This document shows, piece by piece, positions 50,239 through 64,000 of a stretch of 64,000 bases of DNA (positions are counted from its first letter, which is position 1; the number at the start of each line of letters is the position of its first letter). The notes below the pieces were generated by a model that worked only from the letters and a program-made list of their open reading frames with translations, was not told the DNA's origin and searched no databases. The stretch is from Paucibacter sp. DJ2R-2 (GTDB taxonomy: Bacteria; Pseudomonadota; Gammaproteobacteria; Burkholderiales; Burkholderiaceae_C). Made by a program: the position numbers and the translations under genes. Where the stretch lies: contig NZ_JAJIRT010000006.1 of assembly GCF_025717675.1 (NCBI RefSeq), positions 1 through 64,000 on the forward strand. The letters run 5' to 3'.

Positions 50239-50589
50239 TCAGCCCTCCAAGGTTTCAATGTCAGCCAGGTTCCGACCCGCTGAGGGCGCACCGTCGAAGG
50301 CCAGGTACTCTCGGCCATCGGCCTGTTCGACGATCGTGAAGCTGCGCGCAGGGCAGCGTTCCTGGGAACTGAACACCGCGACGACTTGGGCGCCGTCATG
50401 CATGGCGTCCACGACCTCGGAAGCAGCGGCCACGACGCGAGTGCCGAGTGCATGGTCTGAGCCCATGCTCACCTCACACCAGAGCACTTCGCTGACCTGC
50501 CCATCGGCGCCCATACGGAGCTTGGACACTTCAAAGTAGCGGCCGTTCTCAGTGGCCATCGGTCGGGAACGTTCACCCTGGTAGGTCAT
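50239..50589 (-). CDS. Hypothetical protein (116 aa), first gene of the metal operon
   Basis: The protein alternates strands and helices: NGRYFEVSKLRMGADGQVSE, VLWCEVSMGSDHALGTRVVA, and a short DAMHDGAQVVAVFSSQE. It ends with EYLAFDGAPSAGRNLADIET. It has two cysteines and no CxxC site, signal peptide or membrane segment. I recognise no family. Its stop abuts the HMA gene start, so it is likely co-expressed with the metal genes. The ATG at 50589 is preceded by no strong ribosome-binding site; an internal ATG ten codons later is an alternative start. Confidence 0.7.
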   Translation of the reverse strand: MTYQGERSRPMATENGRYFEVSKLRMGADGQVSEVLWCEVSMGSDHALGTRVVAAASEVVDAMHDGAQVVAVFSSQERCPARSFTIVEQADGREYLAFDGAPSAGRNLADIETLEG

Positions 50590-50956
50590 GGTGCGGACTC
50601 CGTTGAGACAAGCTTGTAGATAAAGCGGGTTCGGGCAGGCAGGGGCTCAAAGGCATGGCGAATGCATCGCGGTCTCGTCCGACGCTGGACCTGAGGAAGG
50701 AACAGTCGGCGCCCGCCCCAGCTGCGGCGCAAACTGACCCAACACGCGCCTCAGAACACCGAACCTGGGTGATGGGGTTTCCACCGCGCCGCGCTGCGTC
50801 GAGAGGCTGGAGCTTGGTGATGCGTGAGCGGGATTCATGATGCAGTCTGGGCCCAGGATCGCCCCCGCACCGTTCGTTGCCGCACCGAATGCACAAAGCC
50901 GGCACAAGCGCCATCGCTCATACAACCCAAGCACCGGTGGGCGGCAAGTCCTTCAC
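50590..50956. other. Intergenic region, no gene supported
   Basis: About 370 bases between the SOUL gene end and the start of the metal operon. Short frames exist on both strands but have no start context or recognisable product. It should carry the promoter of the metal operon; I see no convincing operator. Confidence 0.5.
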
Positions 50957-51703
50957 TCATTGCGGCGCGAGCAAGCGCAACCAGATCTCATTGCGGCGCA
51001 TGAACCAAGGCGTGAAAGGCGCGTTGTAGCGTGAGTACACCGGCGCGCCCTGCCATGCCAGGTCGGCCGCGCGCAGCGCCGCCTCCAGCTTCGCGAGATG
51101 CTCACCGTCGTTCGAGGCCGACCAGAAACCCGAGTAGCGAATCACGGCGACCTGCTCGGGCAGCACCTCGCGAAGCTGGACACGCGCATCCAGCGGTTCC
51201 GGCGCGTTGGCGGCCGTCACGCCTTTGGGCAAAACAAACTGCACCAGGAAACCGCCCGGTGCAGCGCTCTGAGTGACCGGCGCCGTCATCTCGAGCTTCA
51301 TCGGCACAGCAGCCTGTGTCACGGGCGCCGTCATGGCGAATTTCCGCTCGCCCTTGTTCTTGCCGAAGATATAGCCGGCCAGGATGGGAAATGCCTGGCT
51401 ACCGGCCTCACCCGCCGGGCCGGGCACCACGACCTCGGCCACTGCATAGGCGGCGTACTGGCGCAGCTCGATGCCCGCGACTTCGCGCAGGACTTGGTAA
51501 TCGGGCTCTTCGGTGGCGTGGCTGGGCATGGCGATGGTGGTCAAACACAGGGTTGAAAACAGGACGGCGGCGCCCTTCGAGCGCGCGCGACGGGACGGCA
51601 CTCGGCGCAGCAACGCCAGCGCAGGCATGCGAAGCCCTAGCTGGGGAGACGCCAGAGCCTTGGCGACATTGAAAATACTGAGGGGCCAAAGAGATCCACT
51701 CAT
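50957..51703 (-). CDS. SOUL/HBP family haem-binding protein
   Basis: A 248-residue exported protein. The signal region follows a basic stretch (RRVPSRRARSKGAAVLFSTL) and ends near MPSHATEEP. The SOUL domain has YQVLREVAGIELRQYAAYAV, two copies of MTAPVTQ (about 30 bases of coding apart), VIRYSGFWSASND and NAPFTPWFMRRNEIWL. Members bind haem or tetrapyrroles; here the location would be the periplasm. The start may be ATG 51703 (AAGG upstream) or an internal ATG at 51628. Confidence 0.88.
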   Translation of the reverse strand: MSGSLWPLSIFNVAKALASPQLGLRMPALALLRRVPSRRARSKGAAVLFSTLCLTTIAMPSHATEEPDYQVLREVAGIELRQYAAYAVAEVVVPGPAGEAGSQAFPILAGYIFGKNKGERKFAMTAPVTQAAVPMKLEMTAPVTQSAAPGGFLVQFVLPKGVTAANAPEPLDARVQLREVLPEQVAVIRYSGFWSASNDGEHLAKLEAALRAADLAWQGAPVYSRYNAPFTPWFMRRNEIWLRLLAPQ

Positions 51704-51865: not shown

Positions 51866-52900
51866 TCAACGTGGGGAAAAATCGATCACCACGCGTGAAG
51901 GCACTTCGCCCTTGGCCAGGCGCTCAAAGACCTGGTTGATCGCTGACAGCGGCTGCAACTCGATGTCGGCCTTGACCTTGCCGTCGGCGGCGAAGGCCAA
52001 GGCCTCAGCCATATCGCGCCGGTTGCCGACGAAGGAGCCGCGGATGGTGATGCACTTGGCCACCACCTCGAACAGCGGCGTCGGGAACTCGCCGGGCGGG
52101 ATGCCGACCAGCACGCAGCAGCCATGTTTGCGCGTCATGCGCACACCTTGCTCGAAGGCGGGCAGCGAGGGTGCGGTGATCAGCACGCCGTGCGCGCCGC
52201 CACCCGTGGCCTGGACGACCGCGGCCACGGCGTCCGCCTGCTTGGCATTCACGACCGCATCGGCACCCAGGCGCGTGGCATGCGCCAGCTTGGCATCGTC
52301 GATGTCCACCGCGCACACATGCAGGCCCATGGCCTTGGCGTATTGCACCCCCAGATGGCCCAACCCGCCGATGCCTGAGATCACCACCCACTGCCCGGGC
52401 CTTGCTTGGGTTTCCTTCAAGCCTTTGTACGAGGTGATGCCGGCGCAGATCAACGGCGCGGCCTCGACCGCAGACAGGCCGGCGGGGATGTGGGCGACAT
52501 AATTCGGGTCGGCGAGGATGTATTCGGCAAAGCCACCGTTGCGCGTGTAGCCGCCAAACTGCGCGTCGGCGCAGACCGGCTCTTGGGCGGCCAGGCAAAA
52601 CTCGCAGTGCCCGCAAGCCGAGTAGAGCCAGGGCACCCCGACGCGATCGCCCTCCTTCACCGCCCGCACACCGGCGCCGAGCGCGGTGACGATGCCGATG
52701 CCCTCATGCCCCGGTGTGAAGGGCAATGGCGGCTTCAGCGGCCAATCGCCGTTGCGCGCATGCAGGTCGGTGTGGCACACGCCGCAGGCCTCTGTCTTGA
52801 CCAGAATCTGCCCGGGGCCGGGCGTGGGCACCTCGAGCTCCTTGAAAACCAGCGGCTGGCCGAACTGTTCGACCTGCGCGGCTTGCATCGTGTGTGTCAT
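51866..52900 (-). CDS. adhP: Zinc-dependent alcohol dehydrogenase, AdhP type
   Basis: A 344-residue medium-chain dehydrogenase. Catalytic zinc ligands are in EACGVCHTDLHARNGDW and in TPGHEGIGIV; the structural zinc site is CGHCEFCLAAQEPVC. The Rossmann motif is VISGIGGLGHLGVQYAKAMG. It oxidises primary alcohols with NAD+ or runs in reverse. The start at the ATG 52900 leaves 56 bases after the aldehyde dehydrogenase stop, so the two probably form an operon converting alcohol to acid. Confidence 0.93.
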   Translation of the reverse strand: MTHTMQAAQVEQFGQPLVFKELEVPTPGPGQILVKTEACGVCHTDLHARNGDWPLKPPLPFTPGHEGIGIVTALGAGVRAVKEGDRVGVPWLYSACGHCEFCLAAQEPVCADAQFGGYTRNGGFAEYILADPNYVAHIPAGLSAVEAAPLICAGITSYKGLKETQARPGQWVVISGIGGLGHLGVQYAKAMGLHVCAVDIDDAKLAHATRLGADAVVNAKQADAVAAVVQATGGGAHGVLITAPSLPAFEQGVRMTRKHGCCVLVGIPPGEFPTPLFEVVAKCITIRGSFVGNRRDMAEALAFAADGKVKADIELQPLSAINQVFERLAKGEVPSRVVIDFSPR

Positions 52901-52956
52901 GGCTGTGTCCTTGGCTTTACGGTGGTCGGGCAGCGATCGGAGGCCGAGATCGGAGC

Positions 52957-54339
52957 TCAAGCCGGCGCCGGGGCGTCGCCGGAGCGCACCAGCTTTTTGT
53001 TGACGAACTCATGGATGCCCAAGCTGCCCAGTTCACGGCCGTAACCGGAACTCTTGATGCCGCCGAAAGGCAGTTCGGCATCGGCCCAATCGATGTTGTT
53101 GACGAACATCATCCCGGTGTCGACGCAGCTGGCGACGCGTTTGCCGCGCGCTTCGTCTTGGGTCCATACCGAGCCGCCCAGGCCGAAGTCCGAGTCGTTG
53201 GCCAGGGCGATGGCTTGCTCCTCCGTCTTCACCCGGAAGAACGAGACCACCGGGCCGAAGAACTCGTCGCGGAATGCCGGGTTGTTGGGAGCGATGTCGG
53301 TGAGGATCGTGGGCTGCATGAAGGCGCCGGGCCGGGCCATGCGCCCGCCTCCCAGCAGGAGCTTGGCGCCGCCCTGCACCGCGGCGTCCACCTGAGCCAG
53401 CAAAGTCAGCAATGCCGCCTCGCTGGACAGCGGGCCTAGCGTGGTGTCCTCGTCCATGGGGTCGCCTGGACTCAGGGCTTGCAGTGCGCGCTTGAATTTG
53501 GCCAGAAACTCGTCGGCAACCGACTCCATCACGATGAAGCGCTTGGCCGCGCAGCAGGTCTGCCCCGCGTTGTACATGCGGCCCCAGACGGCCCAGGGAA
53601 GCGTCTTGTCGAGGTCGGCGTCGTCCAGCACGATGAAGGCATCGCTGCCGCCCAACTCCATCGTCGACTTTTTCAGGTTCTGGCCGGCGCGGGCCGCCAC
53701 CTTGCGCCCGGCCGCCGCGCTGCCGGTGAGCGCCACGCCCTTGATGCGCGGGTCGTCAATCACGAGGTCGGACTGCTCGTAGGAGATCCGCAGATTGGTG
53801 TAGACACCGACGGGGGCGCCCGCGTCGAGCAGCAGCTTCTCGAAGGCGATGGCACATTGCGGCACGCTGCCTGCATGCTTCACCACCAGCACATTGCCGG
53901 CCATCAGCTGCGGGCCGGCGACGCGAGCGAGCTGGTAATACGGAAAGTTCCAGGGCTCAACACAGAACAACACGCCGAGCGGAGAGCTTTCGATGTGGGC
54001 CTGGCCATGCTTCGGGTGCAGCTTCTGGTGGGACAGGAGCACTTGGGCATGCTGGGCGTAATAGGCCAGGATGTCAGCACTGAACTTGACCTCGGCGCGC
54101 GCCTCATCGATGCGCTTGCCCATCTCCAGCGTCGCCAGCTTGGCGAAGTCATCGACATGGGCATGCAGCAAGCTCGCCGCCTGTTTCACGATGGCGGCCC
54201 GTTCGGCGTAGCTCTTTCGCTTCCAAGTCTCGAAGCCGCTCTGCGCTTGCGCCAGGGCCTGTTCAAGCTGCGCAGGACTCATGTGCTCGAAGCTCTGCAG
54301 CAGCTTTCCGTTCGTGGGGTTGATGCTTTGGTAGGCCAT
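52957..54339 (-). CDS. NAD-dependent aldehyde dehydrogenase, succinate-semialdehyde type
   Basis: A 460-residue enzyme. Motifs are PWNFPYYQLARVAGPQLMAG, GSAAAGRKVAARAG, the general base in MELGGSDAF and the catalytic Cys262 in GQTCCAAKR, with EFFGPVVSFFRVK and ELPFGGIKSSGYGRELG. It resembles the short succinate-semialdehyde dehydrogenases of the Sad/GabD-like branch, but the substrate may be a longer aldehyde. It is the first gene of the pair with the alcohol dehydrogenase and is divergent from the oleate hydratase gene. Confidence 0.92.
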   Translation of the reverse strand: MAYQSINPTNGKLLQSFEHMSPAQLEQALAQAQSGFETWKRKSYAERAAIVKQAASLLHAHVDDFAKLATLEMGKRIDEARAEVKFSADILAYYAQHAQVLLSHQKLHPKHGQAHIESSPLGVLFCVEPWNFPYYQLARVAGPQLMAGNVLVVKHAGSVPQCAIAFEKLLLDAGAPVGVYTNLRISYEQSDLVIDDPRIKGVALTGSAAAGRKVAARAGQNLKKSTMELGGSDAFIVLDDADLDKTLPWAVWGRMYNAGQTCCAAKRFIVMESVADEFLAKFKRALQALSPGDPMDEDTTLGPLSSEAALLTLLAQVDAAVQGGAKLLLGGGRMARPGAFMQPTILTDIAPNNPAFRDEFFGPVVSFFRVKTEEQAIALANDSDFGLGGSVWTQDEARGKRVASCVDTGMMFVNNIDWADAELPFGGIKSSGYGRELGSLGIHEFVNKKLVRSGDAPAPA

Positions 54340-54684
54340 GGTGATGGATCCTTGGGTACAAGTGGGTCAGGCCGCCATGGCGGAAGCGTCGGTGTCGATC
54401 GTGGCGCCGCTCGAGTAGAAGATCGCCATCCATGCGTCCGACTTGGGTGCGGTGGAGTGAGCAGCCTGCGCGCCGCCCGGCTTCGGGTCTGTTCGACGGC
54501 GCACCCTGCATGGGGTGCCGCTTGTACAAGCCGCTTGCGAGGCTCTTGTGTGAGCTAGCGCACTGACGCTAGTGGCCGGCATCCCTAGGGTGGGTACTGC
54601 AGTCGAGAAAGCCAAGGGCGCCGCAGCCCAATTGAGCCAAGGACCGCAACTGACGTTCCAGGCTCACACAAGGACTCCGACCCC
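54340..54684. other. Divergent intergenic region of the oxidation locus
   Basis: It holds 345 bases between the aldehyde dehydrogenase and oleate hydratase starts. The inverted repeat CTAGCG-cactga-CGCTAG lies at 54555-54572 and is a candidate operator. A minus-strand frame at 54367-54615 starts at TTG without a ribosome-binding site and is not supported as a gene. Confidence 0.5.
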
Positions 54685-56268
54685 ATGACTTCGACACGCA
54701 AGGCCTACTTCATCGGCGGGGGCATCGGCTCGTTGGCCGGTGCGGCATTCCTGATCCGCGACGGCGGCATGCCGGGCGCCAACATCCGCATCCTGGAAGC
54801 CGGGCTGCTCATGGGCGGCAGCCTGGACGGTACGGGCGACGCCGAGCGCGGCTATTCGATGCGCGGCGGTCGGATGCTGACCACCGACAACTACGAGTGC
54901 ACGTGGGAGCTCTTCAAGTCCATTCCGTCCATCACCCGCCCCGGCCTCAGCGTTTTTGACGAGACCATGGAGTTCAATGAGGCTCACGTCTCCAAGGCGA
55001 TGGCGCGGCTGGTGGACGGCAGGCGGGCCAAGGTGCCCGTGGCCTCGATGGGGTTCTCGATGCACGACCGGCTGGAGCTGCTCAAGCTGGCCAATGCCGA
55101 TGAATCGACCTTGGGCGCGAGCTGCATCACCGACCATCTGTCACCCGCCTTCTTCCAGACCGAGTTCTGGTTCATGTGGGTCACCACCTTTGCCTTCCAA
55201 CCCTGGCACAGTGCCGTCGAATTCAGGCGCTATCTGCACCGCTTCATGCTGGAGTTCTCACGCATCGAAACGCTGGCTGGCGTCAAGCGCACGGTGCTGA
55301 ACCAGTACGACTCGCTGGTCGTGCCCCTGCTGCGCTGGCTGGAGGCGCAAGGCGTTCATCTGGTCAATGACTGCACGGTGACCGACATCGACGCCCGGGA
55401 GGAGTCTGGCCGCCTCGAAATCTTCAGCCTCAGCTGTGAAGACAAAAACGTCGGCCGTGATCAGGTGACGACCATGCTCTCGGTCAAAGACGAGCTCGTG
55501 TTCCTGCAGAACGGCTCGATGACCGATGCCTCCAGCCTGGGCTCCATGAGCACAGCGCCGGCGAAATTGAAGAAGTCCCATAAGAGCAGCTGGACCTTGT
55601 GGGAAAAGCTTGCCAAGGGCCGGCCCGCCCTGGGCCGACCCGAGGCTTTCAACAGCTGCGTCGCCCAGTCGGACTGGGCCTCCTTCACCGTCACGCTGAA
55701 GGACCCGGCCTTCTTTGACCAAATGCAGCGCTTCACGGGCAACGAGGCCGGCACCGGCGGCCTGGTGACCTTCAAGGACTCGAACTGGCTGATGTCCATC
55801 GTGCTGGCGCACCAGCCGCATTTCGCCAATCAACCGGCGGACGTGCAGGTGTTCTGGGGCTACGGGCTCTTTCCCGATCGCATCGGTAACTTTGTGGCCA
55901 AGGCCATGGCCGACTGCACTGGCGCGGAACTGCTGCAGGAGCTCTGCGGCCACCTGCGCTTCGACCCCGAGACAGTGGCCAGTGCCAACTGCATTCCCTG
56001 TCGCATGCCCTACATCACCAGCATGTTCATGCCACGCGCAGCAGGCGACCGCCCCTTGCCCGTGCCGGAGGACACAGCGAATTTCGCCTTCATCAGCCAG
56101 TTTGTCGAGATCCCCCTGGACACCGTCTTCACCGTGGAGTTCTCGGTGCGCGCGGCGCAGATGGCGGTCTACCAGCTGCTCGGCATCACGAAGCCGATTC
56201 CCGCGGTGAGCGCGCATGACAAGTCCTTGCACGCGCAGTTCGAAGCGCTGGTCAAGGCGCTGAAGTAA
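54685..56268 (+). CDS. ohyA: Oleate hydratase
   Basis: This FAD enzyme adds water to the cis-9 double bond of oleate or palmitoleate, giving 10-hydroxy fatty acid. The 527-residue protein has the FAD motif FIGGGIGSLAGAAFLIRDGG at the N-terminus, GGRMLTTDNYECTWELF and MGFSMHDRLELLKL. Further on are TEFWFMWVTTFAFQPWHSA and NCIPCRMPYITSMFMPRAAG, all typical of the family and of usual length. It starts the plus-strand side of the locus; a cytochrome c gene begins 12 bases after its stop. Confidence 0.93.
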   Translation: MTSTRKAYFIGGGIGSLAGAAFLIRDGGMPGANIRILEAGLLMGGSLDGTGDAERGYSMRGGRMLTTDNYECTWELFKSIPSITRPGLSVFDETMEFNEAHVSKAMARLVDGRRAKVPVASMGFSMHDRLELLKLANADESTLGASCITDHLSPAFFQTEFWFMWVTTFAFQPWHSAVEFRRYLHRFMLEFSRIETLAGVKRTVLNQYDSLVVPLLRWLEAQGVHLVNDCTVTDIDAREESGRLEIFSLSCEDKNVGRDQVTTMLSVKDELVFLQNGSMTDASSLGSMSTAPAKLKKSHKSSWTLWEKLAKGRPALGRPEAFNSCVAQSDWASFTVTLKDPAFFDQMQRFTGNEAGTGGLVTFKDSNWLMSIVLAHQPHFANQPADVQVFWGYGLFPDRIGNFVAKAMADCTGAELLQELCGHLRFDPETVASANCIPCRMPYITSMFMPRAAGDRPLPVPEDTANFAFISQFVEIPLDTVFTVEFSVRAAQMAVYQLLGITKPIPAVSAHDKSLHAQFEALVKALK

Positions 56269-56280
56269 ACGGAGCAGCGC

Positions 56281-57582
56281 GTGATCCAACGTATCTTGAT
56301 GGGCTCGGTGATGGTGCTGCTCCTCGTGGGCTGCGTCGGTATCAGCTGGCGGCCAAGCATGGCGCCGGTCGCGCCGCCTGCGGCCACCAGCTTCACACCG
56401 ACGCAGGTGGCATTCGGCGCGCAACTCGCCGCCGCCGGCAATTGCGCAGCCTGCCACACGGCTCCGGGTGGAGCCGCCTTCGCCGGCGGCCTGGGTCTGG
56501 AAACCGGCTTCGGCCTGGCCTACAGCAGCAATATCACACCGGACCCGCAGACCGGCATCGGCGGCTGGTCGGAGGCCGCCTTCGCCCGGGCGATGCGCGA
56601 GGGCGTGGACCGCGAGGGCTCGCACCTGCTGCCAGCCTTCCCCTACACACACTTCACCAAGCTGAGCGACGCGGATGTGAAGGCGCTCTACGCCTTCTTC
56701 ATGACGCGCCCTGCCGTGGTCGCCGAGGAACGCGAGAACACGATCAAGTTCCCCTTCAATGTGCGCGCCTTGCTGGCCGGCTGGAAGCTGCTCTTCTTCG
56801 ATCGCGGCGTTTATCAGAACGTCAGCGGCAAGAGCGAGGTGTGGAACCGCGGCGCCTATCTTGCCGAAGGCCTCACCCACTGTGCGGCCTGCCACACACC
56901 GCGCAACCGCTTCGGCGCCGAACAAAGCCAATTGGCCTATGCCGGCGCGCCCTTTGAAGGCTGGCTGGCGCCGGCACTGAATGCTTCCAACCCAGCCCCC
57001 CTGCCCTGGATCCAGCAGGACCTGTACGACTACCTGCGCAGCGGTGAGTCAGAAGCGCACGGCGTCGCGGCCGGCGCCATGGCCAGCGTTGTCCACGATG
57101 GACTGGCGAAGTTGCCCGATGCCGACCTGAGGGCGCTGGCGACCTACTTTGCCGACATCAACGGGTCGGCAGCTCGGGCGCCCACGGCTGCAGCCGCCTT
57201 GGCCCTGGCCGCTTCGCGCAGGCTGGTCGATGCCGGCCGCGAGAGCGAACCCGGCGCAAACCTCTACCTGGCCGCTTGCGCGTCTTGCCACTACAGCGCC
57301 GCAGCCCCAGCGCCGGCGGTGCGCGGCAGCCTGAGTTTGAGCAGCGCCCTCACGTCCGACGACCCGGCCAACTTCATACAGACCGTGATGCACGGCGTCG
57401 GCGGCGCCGCTCAAGGCAGGACCACGGGCCCCTATATGCCTGGCTTTGCACTTGCACTGACCGACACCGACATCGCCCTGCTGGCCGCCTACTTGCGGCG
57501 CACGCGCAGCGACCAGCCGGCCTGGCTGAATTTGCCCGCCGCCATTGCGGCGCGCCGCCCCCCAACCGCCGCCACACCATGA
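56281..57582 (+). CDS. Tri-haem c-type cytochrome, electron acceptor of a periplasmic dehydrogenase
   Basis: A 433-residue protein with a lipoprotein-like signal ending LLLVGCVGI. It has three CxxCH haem sites: CAACH from Cys55, CAACH from Cys201 and CASCH from Cys333. This three-domain layout is that of the cytochrome subunits of alcohol/aldehyde dehydrogenase complexes. The GTG at 56281 has GGAG upstream. Its stop overlaps the 2Fe-2S gene start as ATGA, so it is coupled to the hydroxylase subunits and should pass their electrons to the respiratory chain. Confidence 0.92.
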
Positions 57583-58079
57583 GCACAGCAACGACACCCG
57601 CCACCAGCAGCACCTTTCATCTCAATGGCCAAAGCATCATCGTGACGGCCAGCCCGGACACGCCTTTGCTGTGGATCATCCGCGACGTGGCAGGCCTGAC
57701 CGGCACCAAATTCGGCTGTGGCATCGGCCTGTGCGGCGCCTGCACCGTGCACCTGGGCCGGCGGGCGGTGCGCTCCTGCATCACGCCGCTCAGCGCCGTG
57801 GCCGGCGCGCAGATCACCACCATCGAAGGCTTGTCGGCCGACGGCCAGCACCCGCTGCAAAAGGCCTGGGTCCAGACGCAGGCGCCGCAGTGCGGCTACT
57901 GCCAGTCGGGCCAGATCATGCAAGCGGCGGCGCTGATCCGTCGCTTCCCAAAGCCCAGCGATGAGGACATCGATTCGGTGATGAACGGAAACCTCTGCCG
58001 CTGCATGGCCTATGTGCGCATCCGCCAGGCCATCAAGATTGCAGCGGCCGAAGTCCAGGGGGCAGCGTCCCATGGCTGA
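57579..58079 (+). CDS. 2Fe-2S subunit of a molybdenum hydroxylase (IorA-like)
   Basis: A 166-residue protein with the two 2Fe-2S domains of the xanthine dehydrogenase family. The first cluster uses [15 protein letters not shown] and the cysteine in RSCITP. The second uses QCGYCQSGQ and NLCRCMAY. It moves electrons from the molybdenum centre to an acceptor. The start overlaps the cytochrome gene stop, and its end overlaps the large-subunit gene by eight bases. Without a twin-arginine signal of its own it would be exported together with the large subunit. Confidence 0.93.
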
Positions 58080-60339
58080 CATCGCCGACCAGGTGCCGGA
58101 CCCAAGGCGGCGCGTCTTCCTGATCAGCGCGACCGGCAGCGGCTTCGCCATGGCCTTCGCGCTGCCGCAGCAGGCTCGGGCGGCCGACAAGGCCGGCGCC
58201 GCTGAGAACAGCGCCCTGCCCTTTGAACCGACGATCTGGTACGAGATGGACCGGGACGGCATCGTCACGGTCAACATCATCCGCGCCGAGATGGGCCAGC
58301 ATGTGGGCACGGCGCTGGCGCGCATCGTCGCTGATGAGTTGGAGCTCGACTGGGATTCGGTGCGGCTGCGCTATGTGGACACCGATCCCAAATGGGGCAC
58401 CATGGTGACCGGCGGCAGCTGGTCGGTCTGGCAAAGCTTTCCCTACCTCAGCCAGGCCGGTGCCGCGGGGCGCATGGCCTTGATCGCCGAAGGCGCGAAG
58501 CTGCTGCGCGTGGGCGAGGCCAGCTGCACGGCACGCAATAGCAGGGTCAGCGGCGCCGGTCAGTCCATCAGTTATGCCGACATCGTGCGGCGCGGCCAAC
58601 TCGCCCGCAGCTACACGGCCGATGAACTCAAGGCCATGCCCATCAAGGCAGCCGCCGAGCGCCGCCTGATCGGCTGGCCCACGGCTGCCATCGACATCCC
58701 CGGCAAGACCACCGGCGCGGCACGCTACGGCCTGGACGCGCAAGTGCCCGGCATGGTCTACGCCCGGCCCAAGCTGCCGCCCACGCGCACGGGCTGCCGG
58801 GTGAGCGCCATCGACGACAGTGCGGCGCGCAGCATCCCGGGCTACCTGAAGAGCCTGGTGCTGGAGGACCCCTCAGGCACCGTACCGGGCTGGGTGGTGG
58901 TCTGCGCCGATTCGTTTTTCGCGGCCAGCCGCGCGGCCGATCGGGTGCAGGTGACGTGGACGAGCAGCCCTGCGGCCGCGGTGTCGGAGGCCGACCTTCA
59001 GGCGCGCGGGCTGAAGCTGGTCTCGGACGCGACAGGCGGCTCGCTGGTGGTCGAGGACGCCGGGGTCGATGCCGCCTTCAACACTGCAAAGTCGACTTTG
59101 GAGCGCGACTACACGACGGCCACCGTGCTGCATTTCCAGCTCGAGCCGCTGAATGCGTTGGCCTTTCTGAAGGACGGGCGCTGGGAGATCCACACCGGCA
59201 ACCAATGGCAGTCGCTGATCCTGCCGACCCTGGCCAAGGCGCTGGGCGTGCCCGAAGCGCAGGTGCTGATGCGCAGCTACCTGATCGGCGGAGGCTTCGG
59301 CCGGCGCCTGAACGGCGACTACGCGGTACCCGCCGCACTGGCCGCCCAAGCCCTGGGCCGGCCGGTGAAGCTGGTGTGGACGCGCGCCGACGACGTGCGC
59401 TTCGACTCGCCGCGCTCACCCTCGGTGCAGCGCCTGCGCATGGCCTTTGGCGCCGACGGCCAGGTCACCGGCATGCAGCACCACGCCAGCGCCGGCTGGC
59501 CCACGCGGGTCATGGTTCCGGCCTTCATGCCCAAAGGCAAGAACGGCGCGCCCTACGACCCGTTCGCGATCTCAGGTGCCGACCATTGGTACTCGGTCGG
59601 CGCACAACGCGTGCGCGCGATTGCTAACGACCTGGCCAACAACACGTTTCGCCCCGGCTGGCTGCGCTCGGTGGGGCCAGGCTGGACCAACTGGGCGCTG
59701 GAGTCCTTCATGGACGAAGCGGCCCGAGCAGCGGGCATGGACCCGCTCGCCTTCCGCCTGCGCCTGCTGGCGGGCAATGGCAAGAACGGCATCGGCGGTG
59801 CGGTTCGCCAGGCGCAGGTTTTGCAACGCGCGGCAGACAAAGCCGGCTGGGGCAGCAAGATGCCAGCAGGCACCGGCTTGGGCCTGGCCACCACCTTCGG
59901 CCAGGAACGCGACATGCCCACCTGGTGTGCCTGCGTCGCGCGGGTGCGGGTGGAGCGCAGCAGCGGGGTCGTGAAGGTCGAGAAGCTCACGGTGGTGGTC
60001 GACGCCGGCACCATCGTCCACCCCGATGGCGCGCTCGCGCAGGTCGAGGGCGCCTCGCTCTGGGGCTTGAGCATGGCTTTGTTCGAAGGCACCGAGTTCG
60101 TCAAAGGCCAGGTGCGCGACACCAACCTCAACACCTACACACCGCTGCGCATGCGAGACGTGCCGCCCATGGACATCGAGTTCATCGCCAGCACCCTGCC
60201 GCCCACCGGCCTCGGCGAACCCGCCACCACGGTCGTCGGGCCCGCCATCGGCAATGCGCTCTTCGCCGCCGTCGGCGTTCGCCTGCGCCACCTGCCGATG
60301 CGCCCGGCCGATGTGCTGGCCGCGCTGAAGCAGGGTTGA
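58072..60339 (+). CDS. Molybdopterin-binding large subunit (IorB/aldehyde oxidoreductase type)
   Basis: A 755-residue catalytic subunit with a twin-arginine signal ([20 protein letters not shown]). Cofactor motifs are [37 protein letters not shown] and the active-site glutamate in [14 protein letters not shown]. The GGGFGRR form is typical of isoquinoline 1-oxidoreductase-like and periplasmic aldehyde dehydrogenases. With IorA and the cytochrome it should form a periplasmic oxidase of N-heterocycles or aldehydes; which of the two is not clear. It lacks its own FAD subunit, as in the IorAB class. Confidence 0.92.
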
Positions 60340-60361
60340 TCCACCACCCCAGGGATTCACC

Positions 60362-61396
60362 ATGACACAGAGCCCCAGCATCAACCGGCGCATCGTCCTG
60401 AATGCGAGGCCTCGCGGCGCGCCAACGGCCGCAGACTTTCGCCTCGACACCGTGCCCGTCCCGAAGCCTGAGGCGGGCCAGGTCTTGTTGCGCACGCTCT
60501 ACCTCTCGCTCGACCCTTATATGCGCGGGCGCATGAGCGATGGCCCGTCCTACGCCGAGCCGGTGGCCCTCGGCGAGGTGATGGTCGGCGGCACGGTGTC
60601 GCGCGTCGAGGCTTCAAAACATGGCGACTACAAGGTGGGGCAGCTGGTGCTGGGCTACGCGGGCTGGCCGGACTATGCGCTGTCCGACGGCACGGGCCTC
60701 AGCCCCATCGCCTACGAGGAACGTCATCCCTCGCGAGCTCTGGGCGTGCTGGGCATGCCGGGTTTCACGGCCTACATGGGCTTGTTGGACATCGGGCGCC
60801 CGGTGGCCGGCGAGACCGTCGTCGTGGCGGCCGCCAGCGGCCCGGTCGGCTCGGTCGTGGGCCAGATCGCGAAGCTCAAAGGCTGCCAGGTCGTGGGCAT
60901 CGCGGGCGGCGAGGACAAATGCCGCTATGTCATCAACGAGCTGGGTTTCGATTTCTGCGTCGACCACCGTGCGAACGACCTGCCCCGTCACCTGGCGGCG
61001 GCCTGCGCCCAGGGCATCGATGTGTACTTCGAGAACGTGGGCGGCGCCGTGTTCGATGCGGTGATGCCGCTGCTCAACAACAAGGCCCGCGTCCCGGTGT
61101 GCGGGCTGGTCTCTGCCTACAACGCCACCGCGCTGCCGTCCGGCCCGGACCGTCTGGGCCAGCTGGTCGGCACGCTGCTGCGCAAGCGCATCAAGATGCA
61201 GGGCTTCATCGTCTTTGACGACTACGGATCGCGCTGGAGTGAGTTCGCCGGTGCGATGGGCGAGTGGGTACAGCAGGAGCGCATCAAGGTCCGGGAGGAC
61301 ATCATCTTCGGCCTGGAAAACGCAAGCGAGGCCTTCATCGGTCTGCTCGAAGGCCGGAACTTTGGCAAGCTGGTCATTCAGCTGGCCCACGAGTGA
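60362..61396 (+). CDS. NADP-dependent medium-chain oxidoreductase (CurA/YncB-like)
   Basis: A 344-residue zinc-free MDR enzyme of the prostaglandin-reductase/YncB group: INRRIVLNARPRGAPTAADF, YLSLDPYMRGRMSD and the nucleotide-binding segment VVVAAASGPVGSVVGQIAKL. YFENVGGAVFDAVMPLLNN and EGRNFGKLVIQL follow. Such enzymes reduce the double bond of alpha,beta-unsaturated ketones or aldehydes. It follows the hydroxylase by 22 bases and is likely in the same operon. The product may be a reduced aldehyde or ketone. Confidence 0.92.
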   Translation: MTQSPSINRRIVLNARPRGAPTAADFRLDTVPVPKPEAGQVLLRTLYLSLDPYMRGRMSDGPSYAEPVALGEVMVGGTVSRVEASKHGDYKVGQLVLGYAGWPDYALSDGTGLSPIAYEERHPSRALGVLGMPGFTAYMGLLDIGRPVAGETVVVAAASGPVGSVVGQIAKLKGCQVVGIAGGEDKCRYVINELGFDFCVDHRANDLPRHLAAACAQGIDVYFENVGGAVFDAVMPLLNNKARVPVCGLVSAYNATALPSGPDRLGQLVGTLLRKRIKMQGFIVFDDYGSRWSEFAGAMGEWVQQERIKVREDIIFGLENASEAFIGLLEGRNFGKLVIQLAHE

Positions 61397-61950
61397 GGCG
61401 AGCAGGGGCGGTGTGAGCGGCACGGCCACGCTTGGTGGCGCGCAAGCGGACGCCGCCCTTTGCTTTGTGAACTTCATTCCGCCTCGTGCGGCGCCGTAGA
61501 GAAGCACGAGTTCGACGACGGCTTCAACGGCGTCCTGCAGATCGAGCCCGAGCATGGCTGGGGCTCCCATCATGTGAGGCTGGACCTCTGCCACACCGGC
61601 CTGCATGTGACAGGGGCCCCTCGCCTGCGGCAGGCCGGCTTCTGCTGCCATGAGTTCAAACGTCTGGGCCTTGGTGCAGGCCGAACGCAGAACCGCCTTG
61701 TAAGGTTCGCCGCTGCAGCGAGCTAGGGCTCGCGGACGAGCAGCACTGCTCCATTCCTCACCCCTGCCTGGGGCCCAGGACTGGAATCTCCAGCGGTATC
61801 CGCAAAAACACTGATGCCGCCGGCGTTCCAGATCGGCTAAATTGCGTTCAAACAAAGGTTAATCGTTTAACCCATTAACTGGAAGACACAGTTGATGGGT
61901 GAAACACCACAAAACCAGACAAGCCACGGGCTTGCAAGCGAGAGACAAGC
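61397..61950. other. Long intergenic region before the galactanase gene
   Basis: About 550 bases with no supported gene. Open frames across its left part on the minus strand run into the oxidoreductase gene and have no start context. The right end (61840-61950) is AT-rich and carries the LacI-type operator; the rest looks like ordinary GC-rich spacer or gene remnant. Confidence 0.5.
61857..61872. promoter_or_regulatory. LacI-family-type operator
   Basis: GGTTAATCGTTTAACC is a near-perfect 16-bp palindrome with a central CG, the form of operators bound by LacI-family sugar repressors. It lies 80 bases before the galactanase start in an AT-rich patch. The regulator gene is not in the window. 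Confidence 0.6.
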
Positions 61951-63219
61951 TTGAACGCTATACATACACGACCGAGCCACGGGCTGAGCCGACGCCAGCT
62001 TTTGCTGGCTTGCACCGCGGCCAGCGCCTGCCCGGTGCTGGCAAACCCGCCCGACTGTACGGCGGCAACTAGCACCCGCTATGCCGACCAGTTCATTCTC
62101 GGCGCTGACGTCTCAACCCTGGACGCGGTGGAGCGCGGCGGTGCACGCTTCAGCACGGCAGATGGCCGAGCCGGCACCGCGCTGCAGATCCTTCGCGCCT
62201 CCGGGGTGACGTGGGCGCGGCTGCGGCTCTGGCACACACCCATCAACTCTCGCGACGTGATCGACGGCGAGCGCATCATCTCGCGCCACGGGGAACCCGT
62301 CGGCGGTGGCAACAACAGCCTGGAGCTGACACTCGCTCTGGCCAAGCGCCTACGCGCGCAGGGCATGAAATGGCTGCTGGACATCCACTACAGCGATTTC
62401 TGGACCGATCCGGGCAAGCAGGAGAAGCCTGCCGCCTGGGCCAAGTTGCGAGGCAAGGCACTTCAGGACGCTGTGCAGCGCTACACCGTGGATGTGCTGA
62501 CCGCCTTGCACCGCCAGGGCACCGACCCGGACATGATCCAGGTCGGCAATGAGATCAATGGCGGCATGTTGTGGCCGGACGGCAAGACCTGGCGCGAGAC
62601 GCCGGACGAAGCCATCGGCGGCGACCAGGCCTTCATCGAGCTGCTGCGCGCCGGCATCCGCGGCGTGCGCGAAACCGATGCGCTTCGCGGCAGTCGCCTG
62701 CCCCTGATGCTGCACCTGGCGCATCAAGGCGATGGCAAGAGCGAGGCCACCTTCCGGCGCGTCTACGACCAGTTCGAGGCGGCCAAGCTCGATTACGACC
62801 TGATCGGCCTCAGCTGGTACCCCTACCACCATGATTCCATCGACGGCCTGCGCGCCAATTTGCGCATGCTGTCCGAGCGCTACCGAAAACCGCTGGTGGT
62901 GGTCGAGACCGCCTATGGCTACCAACTGGACAACCCAGATGGCGGCCCGGCTGTCTTCAACGCCGAAGGCGCGAAGCGCTCCGGCTATCCGGCGACACCG
63001 GAAGGCCAGGCCGCATTGCTGCGGGATGTGGTCCAGGCCGTTGCCGCCGTGCCGCAGGGCCTGGGCGTTTTCTACTGGGAGCCCGCCTGGCAATCCGCAC
63101 CGGGCGCCGGCTGGCGCACGGGTGAAGGCAACGCCTGGGCCAACCAGACCCTGTTCGATGCCAAGGGCCGTGCCTTGCCGGCCCTGAAGGCGTTCAAGGC
63201 GGCCGCCCCCTGCCGTTGA
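61951..63219 (+). CDS. GH53 arabinogalactan endo-beta-1,4-galactanase
   Basis: A 422-residue secreted enzyme that cuts beta-1,4-galactan side chains of pectin. A twin-arginine-like signal (GLSRRQLLLACTAASACPVLA) leads to the GH53 TIM barrel: FILGADVSTLDAVERGGARF, WARLRLWHTP, WLLDIHYSDFWTDPGKQ. The acid/base is Glu201 in QVGNEINGG, the nucleophile Glu319 in VVETAYGY. It begins at TTG with GAGAGA upstream. A TonB receptor gene follows 47 bases downstream, and a LacI-type operator lies upstream, so the set is probably galactan-induced. Confidence 0.93.
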   Translation: MNAIHTRPSHGLSRRQLLLACTAASACPVLANPPDCTAATSTRYADQFILGADVSTLDAVERGGARFSTADGRAGTALQILRASGVTWARLRLWHTPINSRDVIDGERIISRHGEPVGGGNNSLELTLALAKRLRAQGMKWLLDIHYSDFWTDPGKQEKPAAWAKLRGKALQDAVQRYTVDVLTALHRQGTDPDMIQVGNEINGGMLWPDGKTWRETPDEAIGGDQAFIELLRAGIRGVRETDALRGSRLPLMLHLAHQGDGKSEATFRRVYDQFEAAKLDYDLIGLSWYPYHHDSIDGLRANLRMLSERYRKPLVVVETAYGYQLDNPDGGPAVFNAEGAKRSGYPATPEGQAALLRDVVQAVAAVPQGLGVFYWEPAWQSAPGAGWRTGEGNAWANQTLFDAKGRALPALKAFKAAAPCR

Positions 63220-63266
63220 ACGCTGTCCTTTTCTTTCCAAAAACAATCGCTGGAGACATAAGCACC

Positions 63267-64000
63267 ATGACCCAAGCCCACTCACGCGCTCGTCCGCACG
63301 CTGCCCCCATCAACCTGGGACCAGTGGCCCTGGCCTGCGCCGCGCTGCTGGCACCGCTGACTGCCGCCGCCCAGCCTGCCGCTGCGCCAGAGACAGACAA
63401 GCTCGACACCGTCGTCGTGCAAGGCCAGCGCTCCAGCCTGATGAAGGCCCAGGACATCAAGCGCAACGCCGAGCAAGTGGTCGACTCCATCGTGGCCGAC
63501 GACATCGGCAAGCTGCCCGACGCCAATGTGGCCGAGGCGCTTCAGCGAATCACGGGCGTGCAGATCTCCCGCAATCGCGGTGAAGGGGACCGCGTGCAAG
63601 TGCGTGGCTTGCAGCAAACGCAGACCCTGTTGAACGGCCGCGTCATCTTCAGTGCCGGCAAGGAGCGAGGCCTGTCCTTCCAAGACGTGCCTTCCGAACT
63701 CTTGGCCGGCGCCGACATCTACAAGACTCCCACGTCCGAGCTGATCGAAGGCGGCATCGGCGGTGTGATCGACCTGCGCACCCGCCGCCCCTTCGACTTC
63801 GCTGGATTCAAGCTGGCCGGCTCGGTCAAAGCCACGCAGGCCCAGCTGGCGGACAAGAACAATGGCGAGGGCTCCTTGCTGATGTCCAACCGCTGGCGCA
63901 CCAGCGGTGGCGAGTTCGGCGCTCTGCTCAGCCTGTCCACCCAGAAGCGGAACTACCGCTCGGACACGCAGGAACTGGACAACCCGGCCGCTGTGGCGGA
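63267..64000 (+). CDS. TonB-dependent receptor, N-terminal part (cut by window edge)
   Basis: The frame is open from the ATG at 63267 (GGAG upstream) to the edge, 244 codons. A signal peptide (ALACAALLAPLTAAAQP) is followed by the TonB box region DKLDTVVVQGQRSS and the plug: DDIGKLPDANVAEALQRITG, QVRGLQQTQTLLNGR and IEGGIGGVIDLRTRRPFDF. The plug is that of the large sugar-uptake receptors of Xanthomonas and Caulobacter type. With the galactanase gene it likely imports galacto-oligosaccharides. Confidence 0.9.
   Translation, partial: MTQAHSRARPHAAPINLGPVALACAALLAPLTAAAQPAAAPETDKLDTVVVQGQRSSLMKAQDIKRNAEQVVDSIVADDIGKLPDANVAEALQRITGVQISRNRGEGDRVQVRGLQQTQTLLNGRVIFSAGKERGLSFQDVPSELLAGADIYKTPTSELIEGGIGGVIDLRTRRPFDFAGFKLAGSVKATQAQLADKNNGEGSLLMSNRWRTSGGEFGALLSLSTQKRNYRSDTQELDNPAAVA

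Follow-up and report, generated by a model that had tools for sequence, protein, structure and literature searches.

An oleate hydratase gene block in Paucibacter sp. DJ2R-2 and a candidate CRP/FNR-type operator at its divergent promoters

The gene block

The DNA considered here, referred to as the window, is a 64,000-nucleotide stretch of Paucibacter sp. DJ2R-2 (assembly GCF_025717675.1, contig NZ_JAJIRT010000006.1, positions 1-64,000 of the forward strand). It contains a block of seven genes at 51866-61396, in which an oleate hydratase gene (OHY) heads the plus-strand run OHY-CYT-IORA-IORB-CURA and the pair ALDH-ADH is transcribed divergently on the minus strand. An earlier note on this DNA had described a hydratase gene followed by cytochrome c, IorA-like, IorB-like, and medium-chain reductase genes with short or overlapping junctions, and an aldehyde and an alcohol dehydrogenase lying divergently. 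Gene families and coordinates bear out this content and order, including both divergent dehydrogenases, and the junctions are indeed tight: a 12-bp gap between OHY and CYT, overlaps of 4 bp between CYT and IORA and of 8 bp between IORA and IORB, and a 22-bp gap between IORB and CURA. A scan for sigma-70-type promoters returned none in 54300-54720 and none in 56200-62000, and the latter region held 3 terminator-like matches compared with 3.6 expected.

The OHY gene (54685-56268, plus strand) encodes a 527-residue oleate hydratase of the MCRA family, which matches PF06100 with 663 bits (cut-off 23) and the NCBIfam oleate hydratase model NF010584 with 672 bits (cut-off 567). No export signal is evident on inspection of its sequence, and the enzyme looks cytosolic. 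CYT (56281-57582, plus strand), which begins with GTG, encodes a tri-haem cytochrome c subunit with three CXXCH motifs. IORA (57579-58079, plus strand) encodes the [2Fe-2S] small subunit of a molybdenum enzyme, with Fer2 (PF00111) and Fer2_2 (PF01799) domains and eight cysteines, and IORB (58072-60339, plus strand; a start at 58072 is likelier than one at 58012) encodes the molybdopterin large subunit, with PF02738, PF20256, and a GLGEP motif. The last gene, CURA (60362-61396, plus strand), specifies an NADPH-type ene/enone reductase of the CurA/prostaglandin reductase family. On the other strand, ALDH (52957-54339) encodes an NAD(P)-type, succinic-semialdehyde-dehydrogenase-like aldehyde dehydrogenase (PF00171, 454 bits; best solved relative 3vz0, 522 bits; GQTCC and ELGG motifs). 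ADH (51866-52900, the longest open reading frame reaching 52960) encodes a zinc-dependent, AdhP-like alcohol dehydrogenase with PF00107, PF08240, and the zinc motif CGVCHTD; its best solved relative is 1llu (457 bits), and it scores 331 bits against the AdhP model, under the cut-off of 344.

A candidate operator before both operons

For comparison, the best 80 of at least 577 OHY relatives were taken together with the window (81 loci); these are the closest relatives and no random sample, and many lie on short contigs. Aligned upstream regions of the clade that carries the block contain a conserved element, distinct from the FNR box, which forms a 21-base site with the consensus GTnCGnnRnCGnACAGACC. 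In the window, operator-like sites of this kind precede both operons. The ALDH-ADH site (54486-54506, minus strand; GGGTGCGCCGTCGAACAGACC) is followed at the expected spacing by a -10-like CAGGCT. The OHY site (54548-54568, plus strand; GTGTGAGCTAGCGCACTGACG), which aligns with a site conserved before OHY in relatives, is followed by a -10-like TAGGGT (54586-54591, plus strand) at class II spacing. The rule for this spacing comes from 102 sites, at which a -10-like hexamer starts 17 bases downstream of the motif in 68 and 18 bases downstream in 15 (83 of 102 in total); the hexamer positions lay outside the operator matrix. In class II CRP/FNR promoters, the dyad lies near -41.5, and the -10 spacing suggests that the operator has this geometry, with a dyad at about -41.5.

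Under three matrices, the ALDH site is the best match in the window (24.0, 23.2, and, with the strictest matrix, which was built without the OHY seed sites, 23.4), and the OHY site is the second best (21.6, 20.5, and, with the strictest, 15.5). With a matrix trained on sites from outside the block, these two promoter sites are the best of 127,960 window positions. In shuffles that kept single-base content (20 for each matrix), the ALDH site tops every shuffled window under both the non-block-trained and the strictest matrix; it also matches the pattern exactly in a scan of the organism's own genome. The OHY site, at 20.5 under the non-block-trained matrix, stands above the maxima of all 20 shuffled windows (10.8-18.1). 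Beyond the window, a matrix made from 10 OHY promoter sites found 48 of 1037 upstream regions scoring at least 14, compared with 2.3 in shuffles of the same single-base kind, and about half of these do not precede OHY. After retraining, 108 of 939 regions reached that score compared with 0.33 in such shuffles, or 104 of 925 once the duplicate locus L141 is removed. Among 88 OHY promoters, 25 score at least 14, two of them (14.4) looking like FNR-type promoters; the remaining promoters fall to 8.8 or less.

Other boxes of the CRP/FNR kind occur before some related hydratase genes. Allowing at most one mismatch, FNR-type boxes precede OHY in 14 of the 80 related loci compared with 0.90 expected from dinucleotide-preserving shuffles; on the same basis, TTGAC-N6-GTCAA was found in 2 of 80 (0.6 expected) and the Escherichia coli CRP-type TGTGA-N6-TCACA in none of 80 (0.65 expected). 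Before the OHY of the window, the FNR/FixK2 box TTGAT-N4-ATCAA was not found, and since the best match has 3 mismatches, this box was rejected as its control. The genome has a second OHY copy (C34:45432-46994, also seen as L018 and L133), which is 70% identical to the first, belongs to a different clade, and has a Crp/Fnr-like gene ahead of it and an FNR-type box, TTGATCCGGATCAT, upstream. Within the window, two overlapping, weaker operator-like sites were also seen at 50867-50890, between an open reading frame at 50239-50559 and a SOUL haem-binding gene at 50957-51703; a SOUL gene also lies near OHY in loci L022 and L026.

Control of an oleate hydratase by an activator of this family is already known. 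Excerpts of two papers report that blr1289, an oleate hydratase of Bradyrhizobium diazoefficiens, is raised in microoxia (PMC6515984) and that it is 23.1-fold lower in a fixK2 mutant, with TTGATCCAGCGCAA as the listed site (PMC9104804). The window resembles that case in that the hydratase would be tied to a CRP/FNR-family activator, judging from its sequence. It differs in that its OHY has the GTnCG-type operator, whereas the second copy has the FNR-type box. What is added here is a different operator, its regulon, and the block of carbonyl enzymes. The available passages of papers on Burkholderia low-oxygen loci and on Herbaspirillum Fnr mention no such operator, and in a search of open-licence literature, seen in part, no paper was found that describes this gene block or operator.

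The presumed regulator and its regulon

Locus L020 carries a Crp/Fnr protein, c22, the best match of which in the genome of DJ2R-2 lies on a separate contig, at C44:67472-68188 (67472-68164 in the first match; 77%). Its similarity to solved Crp/Fnr proteins is weak (30 bits). The operator precedes the gene of the regulator itself, both in DJ2R-2 and before c22 in L020, L027, L058, and L067. An ortholog of c22 at 75% identity or more is present in 11 of 16 genomes, and these contain 7, 5, 5, 5, 8, 9, 2, 4, 1, 2, and 5 exact operator sites, a sum of 53, compared with 3 for the reversed pattern. The 5 genomes that lack it, one of which (G016) is 79% complete, contain 0, 1, 0, 0, and 0 sites, with 2 for the reversed control. 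Across these 16 related genomes, operator count goes with regulator presence (one-sided rank test, p 0.001), which is consistent with c22 binding the operator.

The genome of DJ2R-2 has 7 exact sites. With one mismatch allowed, there are 30 compared with 20 for the reversed pattern, and the one-mismatch sites must consequently be largely noise. The own-genome sites precede the regulator gene, a DnaJ-type gene, a ferritin operon, a gene of the fatty-acid-hydroxylase family, an OmpA-type gene, a BON gene, and an MlaE operon. Elsewhere, the operator stands before several enzymes of the kinds found in the block: before ALDH in the window, L021, L027, and L028; before CURA, at a promoter of its own, in L026 and L035, with another before OHY in L026; before a CYT-IORA-IORB operon that lacks OHY in L142; before a flavin mononucleotide (FMN) ene reductase in L030 and L134; and before a short-chain dehydrogenase/reductase (SDR) in L022. 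A VIT-like gene (L031) and genes for BON, PRC, USP, DUF1003, crystallin, catalase, glyoxalase, DksA-like, and MlaE proteins also carry it, and stress genes are numerous among these further carriers. A regulon responding to light or singlet oxygen was considered and dropped; the recurrent neighbors were Crp/Fnr, PPK2, P-type ATPase, and general stress proteins.

Recurrence of the block and linkage to CurA

Genes around the OHY loci were grouped into families as Louvain clusters, by which families may be split or merged. All five operon genes, OHY-CYT-IORA-IORB-CURA, occur together in only one of the 80 related loci, L022. CYT-IORA-IORB follows OHY in the window, L021, L022, and L024, and the contig of L020 stops inside CYT; L021 and L024 are without CURA, the contig of the latter stopping 1.4 kb past IORB. 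In L028, ADH, SDR, and ALDH genes diverge from OHY-CURA and there is no molybdenum enzyme, and in L042, OHY-CURA-ALDH-SDR all lie on one strand. The earlier note had proposed looking for conservation of the whole block; the full block is rare, but its parts do recur together, as in L028 and L042. The recurrence of OHY-CYT-IORA-IORB in L021, L022, and L024 means that the block is more than a chance grouping; it is real and modestly conserved. Arginine deiminase genes beside the L021 block were examined as partners and judged unrelated, and the window's own sequence beyond CURA, a glycosyl hydrolase family 53 gene and then the start of a TonB-receptor-like open reading frame (61951-63998), likewise looks unrelated. 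Within the genus, 14 of 18 genomes have an OHY match, 13 of them strong plus G001, where a strong match is joined by one of 30 residues (E 8e-4); a copy more than 80% identical to that of the window was found only in the window genome and G010.

Linkage of the hydratase to CURA reaches further. The CURA protein scores 564 bits against the NCBIfam CurA equivalog NF058644 (cut-off 440), and its solved relatives are 5zxn (499 bits, the best) and 4b7c, followed by plant double-bond reductases and leukotriene B4 dehydrogenase. By this model it belongs with CurA, prostaglandin reductase, and 2-alkenal reductase; what sets it apart is the linkage of its gene to a hydratase. A CURA-type gene is among the called OHY neighbors in 16 of 81 loci, from Pseudomonadota, Acidobacteriota, Verrucomicrobiota, and Planctomycetota. 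It lies on the same strand as OHY in all 16; no more than 3 genes intervene in 14, the two are directly adjacent in 8, and in L086 the linkage includes a 4-base overlap. As background, 150 genomes from the phylum contain 52 PF16884 matches; the family is present in 7 of 7 genomes with PF06100 compared with 37 of 143 others, figures uncorrected for genome size and kinship. The statement in the earlier note that oleate hydratase is usually a lone gene does not always hold among these relatives. An ene reductase of another kind (Oxidored_FMN) adjoins OHY in L030 and an ALDH-SDR-ADH set in L134; in G001, ADH, SDR, and ALDH genes neighbor an FMN ene reductase and OsmC at a place that lacks a full OHY. 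Two Acidobacteria loci (L043:1892-3001 and L088) carry, between OHY and CURA, a gene for a 370-residue protein that matches nothing in Pfam.

An unusual hydratase group

The solved enzymes closest to OHY are those of Rhodococcus and Stenotrophomonas (377 and 376 bits), 5odo being one of the two. At the position of the usual catalytic Glu (the equivalent of E82 in Staphylococcus aureus and E122 in Elizabethkingia meningoseptica), OHY has Met64, and 87 of 88 aligned relatives have Met there, the remaining one having Leu. Its lid is of the short GGxxxG form and reads GGSLDG, with the GG kept in 87 of the 88 and the final G in 82.

According to an excerpt of PMC8994360, HFam3 hydratases have Met at the Glu position and an extended lid and are active, whereas HFam2 and HFam11 hydratases have Glu and the short GGxxxG lid. 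OHY is like HFam3 in its Met but lacks the extended lid over flavin adenine dinucleotide (25 or 27 residues, GxxxG) of that group; it is like HFam2 and HFam11 in its lid but has Met in place of their Glu. The combination of Met and short lid falls outside the three structurally described groups of that excerpt. Because Met-bearing HFam3 members are active, OHY keeps the name of the oleate hydratase family.

The molybdenum enzyme

Among solved structures, the best match of IORB is chain C of 8gy3 (944 bits over residues 32-774), with PaoC the runner-up at 111 bits. The best match of CYT is chain A of the same structure (393 bits), above the cytochromes of glucose, fructose, and alcohol dehydrogenases. 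8gy3 is a membrane-bound molybdenum aldehyde dehydrogenase of the acetic acid bacteria type. CYT, IORA, and IORB together have its three subunits (tri-haem cytochrome, [2Fe-2S] subunit, molybdenum large subunit), and GLGEP is common to both large subunits; unlike 8gy3, the trio sits behind a hydratase gene and within a stress-type regulon. The trio is of the three-subunit molybdenum aldehyde dehydrogenase type by homology, which also predicts an aldehyde substrate. Compared with the label IorAB used in the earlier note, the 8gy3 matches make molybdenum aldehyde dehydrogenase type the better name. IorAB was not among the solved chains matched by IORB, and the comparison included no IorAB sequence. 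IORB has a Tat-like RRRVFL at residue 12, judged by eye, and is predicted to be a periplasmic enzyme; CYT has a lipobox-like LVGC within an N-terminal hydrophobic stretch.

Such enzymes are sparsely distributed. IORB relatives at 70% or more occur in 3 of 18 genus genomes, and surveys at E 1e-150, in which genomes were sampled from each group and few candidates were scored per genome, gave 3 of 250 family genomes and 2 of 399 order genomes, the window genome being counted each time. A trio unaccompanied by OHY appears in the annotation of a Sinorhizobium plasmid (L185) and is also found in L142 and, as far as its short contig shows, in L131. In Janthinobacterium loci L090 and L098, about 4 kb separates OHY from the trio, which is on the opposite strand. 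At L130:2413-5191, an IORB-IORA pair related to that of the window (71-79%) has no cytochrome gene alongside and adjoins a SOUL gene. In the DJ2R-2 genome itself, a minus-strand run beside the regulator gene (G000:C44:61387-65535, equivalent to L173:7387-11535) comprises genes for ferritin, an RcnB-domain protein, and IorA-like and IorB-like proteins, the last at 34% to the IORB of the window. As an operator-like site lies upstream of this run, it may be a second molybdenum hydroxylase in the same regulon.

Weighing the explanations

Taken together, the computed gene content, operon-like layout, gene families, OHY-CurA linkage, class II operator, and co-occurrence of operator and regulator have led to the following model, to which a probability of about 0.6 is given. 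The two divergent operons would belong to one CRP/FNR-type stress regulon and would provide parallel defenses against unsaturated lipids and the reactive aldehydes and enones derived from them, rather than a linear pathway. A stress-type activator, encoded at C44:67472-68188, would switch on both operons together. Cytosolic OHY would add water to free unsaturated fatty acids; CurA would saturate electrophilic C=C bonds adjoining a carbonyl and so handle enones and enals in the cytosol; ALDH and ADH would deal with aldehydes and related compounds in the same compartment; and the periplasmic molybdenum enzyme would oxidize aldehydes, passing electrons through the tri-haem cytochrome to the respiratory chain. 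Activation by the regulator, the inducing signal, all of the substrates, and the role in defense are what we infer.

Several observations weigh against this model. With the strictest matrix, the OHY site (15.5) is equaled or exceeded in 8 of 20 shuffled windows, the maxima of which range from 9.9 to 19.4; the sites used to train the non-block matrix had been chosen earlier with an OHY-seeded matrix; and 63 of the 88 OHY promoters score below 14. The ALDH site of the window is strong, but the OHY site is weaker when taken alone and, because of these shuffled windows, its case leans on conservation and spacing. G207 and G112 have the regulator and no such site before OHY. Each regulator-positive genome also carries further Crp/Fnr paralogues and, because the genomes are few and related as well, binding by c22 is something that we infer. 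The divergent ALDH is absent from L020, L022, and L024, and the link between the molybdenum enzyme and OHY is confined to one OHY clade and the two Janthinobacterium loci. Finally, the regulon covers a broad range of genes (BON, PRC, USP, DnaJ, ferritin, catalase, glyoxalase, MlaE, and MCP), and shared control consequently fails to prove a shared task. The earlier note had named unrelated regulation of the genes as a finding that would tell against a functional block; the opposite was found, the same kind of operator at both divergent promoters, with the OHY site unexceptional by itself under the strictest matrix.

The breadth of the regulon could instead mean that its members have gathered in stress islands by chance and shared control, with no common substrate. 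The operator does precede many unlike genes, gene order is fluid, and the wider surroundings hold genes for cation ATPases, PPK2, PRC, BON, YflT, and Crp/Fnr proteins. However, such a loose neighborhood does not account well for a CURA gene that is always on the OHY strand, mostly at most 3 genes away and in L086 overlapping by 4 bases, or for the over-representation of carbonyl enzymes beside OHY relative to the frequency of PF16884, and this explanation is regarded as quite improbable. The same adjacency of OHY and CURA across several phyla, with SDR or ADH and ALDH alongside in L028, L042, and L045, would also suit a linear lipid pathway, in which OHY yields a hydroxy fatty acid, an ADH or SDR converts it to a keto acid, and CurA reduces a conjugated enone, the molybdenum enzyme having a separate role. 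Its steps would resemble those of the hydratase, dehydrogenase, and enone reductase in Lactiplantibacillus plantarum, the route of which for conjugated linoleic acid includes an enone reductase step. An excerpt of PMC9241672 describes CLA-HY, CLA-DH, and CLA-DC in conjugated linoleic acid metabolism. That set is incomplete here, where the hydratase is accompanied by an ene reductase of another family. The window block lacks the L. plantarum-type SDR that is present in L022, L028, and L042, and no acetoacetate-decarboxylase-type isomerase, the counterpart of the L. plantarum decarboxylase-like isomerase, was seen among the proteins scanned. Furthermore, the window ADH is nearest to ethanol-type AdhP enzymes, and such a route offers no step for an aldehyde dehydrogenase; it is considered unlikely for the window.

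The route suggested in the earlier note, in which OHY feeds alcohols or aldehydes that are oxidized for energy through the molybdenum enzyme and cytochrome c, draws on the tight OHY-to-CURA operon and on the matches of CYT and IORB to the respiratory aldehyde dehydrogenase 8gy3. Its central step is not supported. What hydration of oleate yields is a secondary alcohol rather than an aldehyde; a signal (Tat-like) is seen in IORB but none is evident in OHY, and a direct hand-over to the cytochrome is disfavored because OHY looks cytosolic and the molybdenum enzyme periplasmic; and CYT-IORA-IORB occurs without OHY in L142, L185, and the short contig L131. This route is considered very improbable. 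What survives is the functional link between a hydratase and carbonyl and redox enzymes, to which layout and shared operator point, and this is accommodated by the model of parallel defenses.

Implications

A broader proposal is made more tentatively, at somewhat less than even odds: that a CRP/FNR regulator of Burkholderiales and their relatives runs a general stress regulon through GTnCGnnRnCGnACAGACC, including an arm for lipid and carbonyl defense that comprises the Met-type, short-lid hydratase, ene reductases of two unrelated kinds, aldehyde dehydrogenases, and a molybdenum aldehyde dehydrogenase linked to a cytochrome. The enzymes are known ones in a newly noticed arrangement and regulon, and the regulatory result is the part most worth following up. 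To our knowledge, little is understood of what oleate hydratases do physiologically outside Gram-positive and gut bacteria, and the tie of OHY to ene reductases and aldehyde-oxidizing enzymes, together with the operator that they share, offers a concrete hypothesis for their role. If the broader proposal is true, the hydration of fatty acids would be a routine part of the stress response, placed under FNR/FixK2-type boxes in some lineages and under this operator in others. If confirmed, the operator and its regulator would define a stress regulon that can be read from genome sequence and that reaches genes to which no function has been given.

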